Positions 27,917 to 58,319 of a stretch of DNA of 64,000 nt are shown one piece after another. Source of the stretch: Anaerocolumna chitinilytica (GTDB lineage Bacteria; Bacillota; Clostridia; Lachnospirales; Lachnospiraceae); contig NZ_AP023368.1 of NCBI RefSeq assembly GCF_014218355.1, forward strand, positions 4,217,501 through 4,281,500, written 5' to 3'. The notes under the pieces are model-generated. The model was given only the letters and a program-made list of their open reading frames with translations, ran no database searches and had not been told where the DNA came from. Every line of letters begins with the position of its first letter. Position 1 is the first letter of the stretch. The position numbers were made by a program, and so were the translations under genes.

Positions 27917-28206
27917 AATTTATAGTAAAACGCTAGGAATGAGAGAGTATGTAGATAATTTCTTTACAGAGAGCCTTTGGGTGGTGGAAAAAGGCAGGAA
28001 ACATTTACAGAAGATGGCTCAGGAGCGGTGCGCCAAACCGTTTATAACGCTTAGGCCGCAACAGGTTTGCCTGTTATAGCAAAGGAGTATAATTATCCGG
28101 ACAGGATAACGTACTTATTAAGGTCTTCGCCGTGAGGCAAAGATAAATTGAAGTGGTAACGCGGGTAATACTCGTCTTCTGAATAAGAAGGCGGGTTTTT
28201 TTATTT
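27917..28206 (+). promoter_or_regulatory. T-box riboswitch, methionine-type specifier
   Basis: A tRNA-sensing leader of about 290 bases. Stem I shows the conserved AGAGAGC and GGGTGGTGGAAA elements (27968-27990). The specifier is ATG at 28014-28016, followed by GCTC which pairs with GAGC of AGAGAGC, the usual geometry. The T-box core is GTGGTAACGCGGG (28153-28165), and a competing terminator stem with TTTTTTT follows (28170-28203). Uncharged tRNA-Met should favour antitermination and switch on the two sulfur amino-acid enzymes downstream. Confidence 0.85.
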
Positions 28207-28335: not shown

Positions 28336-29469
28336 ATGGATTTTACTACCCGATGTATTCACGGTGCAGCCAACAACACACACACTACCGGTGCCGTCAG
28401 TGTTCCCATCTACCAGTCTGCTACTTTTGCACATCCCGGGATCGGCCAAAGTTCCGGTTACGATTACTCAAGACTCCAAAATCCCACCAGGGAACATCTG
28501 GAAAAAATAATTGCTAATCTGGAGGAGGGTGTGGATGCCATCGCTTTTAGTACCGGTATGGCCGCCATAACTGCCCTGATGGAGCTCTTTTCTATTGGTG
28601 ATCATATCATAGCATCCGAAGACCTTTATGGCGGTACTGTCCGCCTCTTTGATAATATTAATAAAAAGAATGGACTTCTTTTTGATTACCTTGATACCTC
28701 TGATTTATCGAAGCTGCGTGGCTTAATCCGCAAGGAAACAAAGGCCATTTATATAGAAACTCCTACTAATCCCATGATGCAGGTAACCGATATCCAGGCA
28801 GTGGCTGCCCTTGCAAAAGAATATAATCTGCTGGTTATTGTGGATAACACCTTTCTTACCCCATACTTCCAGCGTCCCTTGACTCTTGGAGCAGACATTG
28901 TAATCCACAGTGGTACCAAGTATTTAAGCGGGCATAATGATACCCTGGCAGGCTTTTTAGTAACCGGAAGAACCGATTTATCTGAGAAGCTTCGCTATAT
29001 ATATAAAACCACAGGGGCTTGTCTTTCTCCCTTTGACAGCTGGCTGTTAATCAGAGGGATTAAAACCCTTGCCATCCGAATGGAACGCCAGGAAGAAAAT
29101 GCGAAGAAAGTGGCAGCCTTTTTAAATTCCCATGAAAAAGTGAAAAAGGTTTACTTTATAGGCCTAGAAACTCATCCTGGTTATGAGATTTCCAAAAAAC
29201 AGGCATCGGGCTTCGGTTCTATGATATCTATTGAGGTAGATACTGAGGCGACAGCCAAGCAGGTTCTGGAAAGAGTTAATCTTATACTTTTTGCAGAAAG
29301 TCTTGGTGGTACTGAAACCTTGATGACTTACCCCATGGTTCAGACCCATGCTGATGTTCCCATAGAGGACCGTCTTGCCAGGGGAATCAATGACCGTCTC
29401 CTGCGTATGTCCGTAGGCCTTGAAAATACAGAGGATTTAATTGAGGATTTAAAGCAGGCACTTTCTTAA
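28336..29469 (+). CDS. Trans-sulfuration PLP enzyme (cystathionine gamma-synthase/lyase family)
   Basis: A 377-residue cytosolic enzyme of the Cys/Met metabolism PLP family. It has the N-terminal TRCIHGA and PIYQSATFA, the PLP-stacking Tyr region YDYSRLQNPT, the EDLYGGT motif and the cofactor Lys in VIHSGTKYLSGHND (about residue 197). Members are hard to separate into cystathionine gamma-synthase, gamma-lyase, beta-lyase or O-acetylhomoserine sulfhydrylase. The Met T-box and the downstream PatB-type lyase favour a role in making methionine. Confidence 0.9.
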   Translation: MDFTTRCIHGAANNTHTTGAVSVPIYQSATFAHPGIGQSSGYDYSRLQNPTREHLEKIIANLEEGVDAIAFSTGMAAITALMELFSIGDHIIASEDLYGGTVRLFDNINKKNGLLFDYLDTSDLSKLRGLIRKETKAIYIETPTNPMMQVTDIQAVAALAKEYNLLVIVDNTFLTPYFQRPLTLGADIVIHSGTKYLSGHNDTLAGFLVTGRTDLSEKLRYIYKTTGACLSPFDSWLLIRGIKTLAIRMERQEENAKKVAAFLNSHEKVKKVYFIGLETHPGYEISKKQASGFGSMISIEVDTEATAKQVLERVNLILFAESLGGTETLMTYPMVQTHADVPIEDRLARGINDRLLRMSVGLENTEDLIEDLKQALS

Positions 29470-58079: not shown

Positions 58080-58122
58080 ATCGAAAACCTCCTTTAATAC
58101 AATAAAATTAATTTATATTACT

Positions 58123-58164
58123 AAAAAAAGCTCCCTCCTTTACTTAAACTTCAAGGACGAGAGC
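58123..58164 (-). terminator. Attenuator terminator in the methyltransferase leader
   Basis: A GCTC-rich stem (58153-58164 with 58130-58141, one bulge) followed on the minus strand by TTTTTTT, located between the promoter and the coding sequence. It should end transcription unless an alternative structure forms. Confidence 0.75.
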
Positions 58165-58235
58165 GTAAGCTTCGAGTTACCGCCTTAGTTTATCTGTAAT
58201 TTACATAACAGATCTTAAACAAGTACGTAATAAGA

Positions 58236-58262
58236 TCAATACTCTAACGCTGTAAACGGCAT
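58236..58262 (-). CDS. Eight-codon upstream ORF in the methyltransferase leader
   Basis: ATG CCG TTT ACA GCG TTA GAG TAT TGA encodes MPFTALEY. It begins about 22 bases after the predicted transcription start and just before a GATCTTA/TAAGATC hairpin (58231-58237 with 58211-58217). No strong ribosome binding site precedes it, which weakens the call. If translated, it is placed as a leader peptide for ribosome-mediated attenuation. Inference from position only. Confidence 0.35.
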   Translation of the reverse strand: MPFTALEY

Positions 58263-58290
58263 GCCAAGCGTAGCCTATACTTTTTTTCGA

Positions 58291-58319
58291 ATTATAAGCT
58301 TAATACCAATTATTGTCAA
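58291..58319 (-). promoter_or_regulatory. Consensus promoter of the methyltransferase leader
   Basis: TTGACA (58314-58319) and TATAAT (58291-58296) on the minus strand, with a 17-base spacer: a perfect match to the sigma-A consensus. Transcription should start near 58284 and give a leader of about 200 bases. Confidence 0.9.

Follow-up and report, generated by a model that had tools for sequence, protein, structure and literature searches.

The leader of the methyltransferase gene, which runs on the minus strand from about 58284 to 58123 of the window (the whole stretch of DNA analysed, 64,000 nucleotides), is very probably a decapitated T-box riboswitch: its sensor is deleted, which would make it blind to tRNA, and its terminator would constitutively dampen the gene. 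By descent, what is left corresponds to the 3' portion of a T-box: promoter and body can each be aligned with the T-boxes that precede the orthologous gene in L032/L081. The original prediction had described an attenuator-type leader, and this layout is indeed found: a perfect promoter, whose -10 box would place the 5' end of the leader near 58284, is followed by a terminator/antiterminator region and then by the gene, the terminator hairpin and its seven T lying shortly ahead of the ribosome-binding site AAAGGAGG. The mechanism read into this layout is not supported, and the leader is probably not an antibiotic-induced attenuator.

Relation to T-box riboswitches

A search of 61 related genomes with the leader DNA gave 26 matches in 13 genomes, and in the better ones the conserved part spans almost exactly the predicted transcript start to the T-run. 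Fifteen matches (the window and 14 homologues) were carried on and the other 11, mostly short or partial, were left out. All 14 homologues match the whole Rfam T-box (RF00230) at 81-117 bits and the methyltransferase locus L004 does so at 119 bits; eight of the 15 lie above the gathering score of 93. The window leader scores 27.2 bits, below that gathering score, with an E value of 3.7e-4 in a search of 551 bases. An Ocean-V match in the leader was rejected as chance (16.7 bits against a gathering score of 75).

Homologues of the leader lie ahead of metA-like, GNAT and lysS-like genes; where the next gene was read, only L032 among the followed homologues precedes a methyltransferase. The metA, lysS and GNAT T-boxes of relatives (L033, L056, L037 and others) are 70-77% identical to the window leader from stem II to the terminator, but they differ from it in having stem I, an AUG or AAA specifier and other targets. 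At L037, L052 and L038, in relatives of the window's genus, methionine-type T-boxes lie ahead of a short GNAT acetyltransferase-like gene (Pfam: L037). The window itself holds an intact T-box at 27926-28182 on the plus strand (112.1 bits, AUG at the specifier place), which precedes a cystathionine gamma-lyase/synthase-type gene (28336-29469) and an aminotransferase-like gene and which, by its sequence, is an ordinary methionine T-box. At L129 (205-590), a T-box homologue matches as two pieces about 50 nt apart.

How widespread is T-box control of this methyltransferase? A motif search found a T-box at most 450 nt upstream in 18 of 80 methyltransferase loci, with the nearest orthologue among them, and none in the other 62 within the upstream stretch covered, which was at least 300 nt at 72 loci and under 300 nt at eight. 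As most loci show no motif, the gene is not generally under T-box control, and it is the nearer orthologues that support a T-box ancestry. Eighteen of the 80 methyltransferase loci were scanned with Rfam, along with 18 other loci. In the former, a T-box was found in eight (105-118 bits) and none in ten, L082 and L084 included; in the latter, the threshold used yielded no match for L003, L005 or the window's own L031. At L123, the T-box sits more than 500 nt ahead of the methyltransferase.

In L084, neither motif search nor Rfam scan found a T-box upstream of the methyltransferase. L082 (80% identity) retains nothing but the terminator hairpin (-18.3 kcal/mol), which lies behind an unrelated 154-codon open frame whose last 112 residues have no Pfam match; this appears to be another truncation, independent of the one in the window. 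Should the T-box be ancestral to the group, the methyltransferase gene would have left T-box control more than once.

The specifier, taken as the three bases ahead of N-[UA]C-U[UC]GGAGC, was read in 25 aligned stems as AUG (8), CCA (8), CCG (6) and AAA (3), the register being fixed by the paralogues that precede metA (AUG) and lysS (AAA). The AUG T-boxes precede metA-like or GNAT genes and the AAA T-boxes lysS-like genes (L033, L056 and L037 checked), and those with CCA or CCG are the ones at methyltransferase loci. The CCA/CCG specifier reads as proline on the sequence, in agreement with the specifier rule as the TBDB description gives it (PMC7778990); a threonine reading (ACC, frame -1) may be the alternative. 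The window genome encodes a tRNA-Pro(UGG) that is followed by an A, the base that pairs with the U of UGGU; its gene was located with a loose sequence pattern, a stricter one giving no match. The proline-type T-box (CCA/CCG) stands upstream of the class I methyltransferase at 18 of the 80 loci by motif (L081-L137), mainly in Lachnospiraceae. A family of proline-type T-boxes is thereby indicated on an uncharacterised Lachnospiraceae methyltransferase, and because the gene carries this family, its enzyme may take part in proline or tRNA-Pro physiology. In the passages drawn on from four T-box papers (PMC7583486, PMC2494555, PMC7778990, PMC6197855), such a methyltransferase is not named as a target.

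Deletion of stem I and changes in the remaining leader

Among the records listed, which may omit some very near the window, Anaerocolumna sedimenticola is the nearest named relative with an orthologue (85% protein identity). Public collections also contain proteins that are 91-93% identical. Leader and gene align with it at 85% from GTATAGGCT onward, and a promoter block of 38 nt aligns separately with the promoter of the intact A. sedimenticola T-box (79%, E 7e-4 in a pairwise search). Between the two aligned blocks lie 122 nt in A. sedimenticola and 1 nt in the window (pairwise alignment with L032), and the roughly 122 missing nucleotides comprise stem I together with the 5' half of stem II (Table 1). 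As shown by these alignments, a deletion joined the ancestral promoter directly to the T-box remainder in the window's lineage. The A. sedimenticola T-box promoter is TTGACA-17-TATAAT as well, so that the perfect promoter of the window is ancestral, and L083 is arranged alike. The deletion is known from a single genome and may be a strain-specific event.

Table 1. Features of the methyltransferase leader and gene in window coordinates.
Feature	Position	Strand	Basis or remark
Promoter TTGACA-17-TATAAT	TTGACA 58319-58314, TATAAT 58296-58291	-	consensus 12/12
Deletion junction, about 122 nt lost relative to the orthologue	58280..58281	-	pairwise alignment with L032
Stem II 3' half, partner gone	58268..58280	-	alignment A2 and orthologous upstream sequences
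Stem IIA/B pseudoknot, 1 of 4 IIA pairs broken, 3 of 3 IIB pairs kept	58247..58267	-	double changes in IIA and IIB family-wide
MPFTALEY upstream ORF, judged a chance ORF	58236..58262	-	start codon by C to T in pseudoknot loop
GAGUA/UACUU hairpin between IIA/B and stem III, family-conserved	58221..58244	-	one-sided variation, no double change
Stem III, 7 of 8 pairs kept	58193..58212	-	8 of 8 pairs with double changes in family
T-box antiterminator	58153..58186	-	bulge CGGUAAC 58182-58176; private changes at A2-alignment columns 105 and 112
Intrinsic terminator	stem 58164-58130, T-run 58129-58123	-	fold -17.0 kcal/mol
Ribosome-binding site AAAGGAGG	58095-58088	-	sequence
Class I SAM-dependent methyltransferase, 264 aa	57285..58079	-	Pfam Methyltransf_25, E 7.4e-19

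Is a T-box body of this family ever found without stem I? A covariance model for the T-box body that included the window sequence (R1) has matches in 161 of 250 family genomes at E 1e-5, and we surveyed 90 of the matches listed (30 loci and 60 regions, a non-random sample in which some second matches in a genome were skipped) with a stem I model (R2) built without the window. R2 places stem I upstream of 78 of the 90 discriminators; nine of these placements are weak (E 0.11-0.92), and all nine discriminators concerned match the whole Rfam T-box at 73-98 bits. Of the 12 discriminators that R2 left without a stem I, eleven give Rfam T-box matches of about 250-335 nt (55-86 bits), so that their stem I is assigned through the whole-model match. 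Stem I was thus found in 89 of the 90 discriminators examined, the only exception being the window's own (L165), for which no stem I match lies in place within the 1500 nt searched upstream. For 12 of the 14 leader homologues, an aligned stem I sequence was obtained.

The remainder of the leader was compared in an alignment of 26 leaders (A2), from which the near-duplicates L089, L098, L113, L128 and L034 as well as L104 and L039 were left out. The pairs of IIA, IIB, the hairpin, stem III and the antiterminator are formed to 99.3% across these leaders, and 13 of 31 pairs are altered on both sides; none of 500 shuffles attains any of five covariation measures, although these controls flatter the structure, which was itself drawn from the same, related sequences. 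Three of the 31 pairs are broken in the window, and of its 25 relatives 22 have none broken and three have one. As 28 pairs can still form, the ruin is incomplete; indeed, the IIB pseudoknot, the GAGUA hairpin, helix A1 and the inner terminator pairs are all fully paired in the window.

With a class I transcriptional T-box (RF00230) the window leader shares the promoter, the IIA/B pseudoknot, stem III, an antiterminator with a 7-nt bulge and a competing terminator, but it has neither stem I nor specifier codon, and CGGU stands in place of UGGU at the 5' edge of the bulge, which reads UGGUA[AU]C in the other 25 rows of A2. Helix A1 is intact, whereas the first A2 pair is broken to U-U by a U that replaces the first A in the window alone. 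The antiterminator has a folding energy of -3.8 kcal/mol, compared with -6.3 to -7.1 kcal/mol in the five relatives tested, and before the terminator is made a different fold now has the lowest energy. Stem III is present but weakened in the fold, as it competes with the private GATCTTA/TAAGATC hairpin (pair probabilities of 0.18-0.59 against 0.96-0.99 in L081). The folding energy of the whole leader is ordinary (z = -1.42).

Both this inverted repeat and AAGGCGGTAACTCG, which had been pointed out in the leader, are present on inspection of the sequence; AAGGCGGTAACTCG is mutated T-box sequence. We rejected the repeat as an operator or selected hairpin: it occurs at one place in the genome when spacers of 8-18 are allowed, and a 7-bp repeat is a chance outcome in 8.6% of the simulations of drift and in 12% of the shuffles.

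Relative to the sister lineage, the window leader has collected 19 private changes against 2 (p 2e-4, outgroup L083). Other outgroups give 17 against 2 (L086), 16 against 4 (L088) and, with the more distant L105, 14 against 6 (p 0.12); columns 138-150 and those past 161 are omitted from these counts. The methyltransferase gene shows 51 private changes in the window and 48 in the sister, and leader and gene counts differ by Fisher's test (p 0.001).

The terminator hairpin has 11 bp with one bulged G, followed by seven T. Its inner five pairs form in 26 of 26 leaders, and its arms are identical to those of the orthologue, with no window-private change in 23 columns, a conservation that is marginal (P 0.02-0.06, depending on the outgroup). 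It is absent from a scan for consensus terminators, which accepts loops of 3-8 and so probably passed over its 12-nt loop.

Predicted effect on the gene

We propose that the leader descends from a complete transcriptional T-box that controlled the methyltransferase gene through a proline specifier (CCA/CCG). As the comparison shows, a deletion of about 122 nt took stem I and half of stem II and placed the old promoter before the remainder; the remainder lost function-critical bases (the U of UGGN, the first A2 pair, pairs in IIA and III), with the terminator arms staying intact. We infer that without a specifier no tRNA-Pro would be recruited and the antiterminator would go unstabilised, so that termination would become the default state; the strong old promoter would then yield a low, constant level of read-through methyltransferase mRNA.

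We consider it unlikely that the discriminator and terminator, without stem I, are instead kept by selection as a re-purposed attenuator that answers to a signal other than the cognate tRNA, candidates for this signal being a different RNA, a protein, the speed of transcription or the acceptor ends of tRNAs in general. The elements that remain fully paired (inner terminator pairs, IIB pseudoknot, GAGUA hairpin, helix A1) would fit such a role, as would a methyltransferase gene that is not decaying and a separately truncated L082 leader that kept its terminator as well. However, one UGGN base and a bulge-flanking pair have changed in the window, the pairing of stem III is weakened, and the leader changes faster than that of the sister lineage; moreover, single-molecule work indicates that the anticodon contact must come before the NCCA contact, and in the part of that paper on mismatched anticodons no binding of such a tRNA is reported (PMC6197855).

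It is distinctly improbable, by our reading of the sequence, that here a natural T-box minus its obligate stem I is kept as a stand-alone, specifier-free attenuator that would regulate the methyltransferase without codon reading. The account of T-box architecture in PMC7583486, in the sections concerned, describes stem I as obligate, UGGN as invariably at the bulge edge, and a specifier as kept in all known T-box varieties, including class II translational T-boxes with a reduced (intermediate or ultrashort) stem I. The window leader differs from these reduced forms in having no specifier and in carrying an intrinsic terminator. In the T-box and riboswitch-loss literature of open-licence PMC, none of the titles and abstract openings listed names a natural T-box that lacks stem I. 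Damaged T-boxes do have precedents, since the TBDB paper mentions 48 sequences without canonical UGGN and the handling of class I matches with truncated stem I (PMC7778990), and boxes upstream of some MFS transporters are said to appear degenerated (PMC2494555); unlike the window, the degenerate T-boxes of these surveys are, in the passages on them, described with no stem I deletion.

Less credible still is that nothing is regulated and the leader is plain decaying sequence, in which the terminator survives only by too little time elapsed. The single genome, the marginal P for terminator conservation and the accelerated change would all be compatible with this, but the terminator is predicted to be stable (-17.0 kcal/mol, seven U), and for this reason transcripts should still end there, selected or not.

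If the leader is a decapitated T-box, it offers a sequence-level picture of riboswitch death, in which the sensor is deleted and a tRNA-contact base and nearby pairs are altered, and promoter and terminator persist. Together with its intact A. sedimenticola orthologue, it would form a natural before-and-after pair for the in vivo contribution of stem I.

The upstream reading frame and the methyltransferase

Ribosome-stalling attenuators of erm and ABC-F genes combine a strong promoter, a short ORF and a terminator. The original prediction had read the leader in this sense, with a resistance methyltransferase induced when a drug stalls translation of MPFTALEY and so prevents the terminator from forming. 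We regard this as the least probable of the readings: promoter, short ORF and terminator do stand in the expected order, and the ATG...TGA frame exists on the minus strand (58262-58236), but its start codon lies within the loop of the conserved T-box pseudoknot and is private to the window (1 of 26 aligned leaders, the other 25 reading ACG, GCG or GTG), just 3 of 26 leaders have ACGCT at the terminator base, no Erm-type family is among those listed for the target, and the nearest orthologue and 17 other loci bear the T-box motif instead.

The start codon corresponds to a change from ACGC to AUGC relative to L081, in which pairing with GCGU is still possible. Attenuation by an upstream peptide was rejected on this lack of conservation, and induction by a ribosome-targeting drug is not supported either, as the ORF start is found in the window alone and the orthologue carries a T-box. 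The proposed antiterminator contact between AGCGT and ACGCT stands as far as complementarity goes; it was rejected, as ACGCT is not kept at the terminator base and the CGU of AGCGU is engaged in the IIA/B pseudoknot, where it pairs with the IIA loop, with covariation.

A resistance-type target (Erm, ABC-F) was likewise not found. The methyltransferase matches general SAM methyltransferase families, with no Erm-type family among the Pfam and NCBIfam matches listed (25 of 34 for NCBIfam); an rRNA-type FtsJ model (PF01728) is listed below the cut-off. Its closest homologues are 55-85% identical, and its relatives in the PDB are distant and mixed. The gene starts with TTG in the window and with ATG in L081, L083 and L086. 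The protein also matches PADLOC mad2 (E 5.5e-18) over residues 40-151 only, the SAM-binding core, which likely reflects a shared fold only. In L088 and L089, three tRNA genes (about 870-1110) lie immediately upstream of the methyltransferase T-box.
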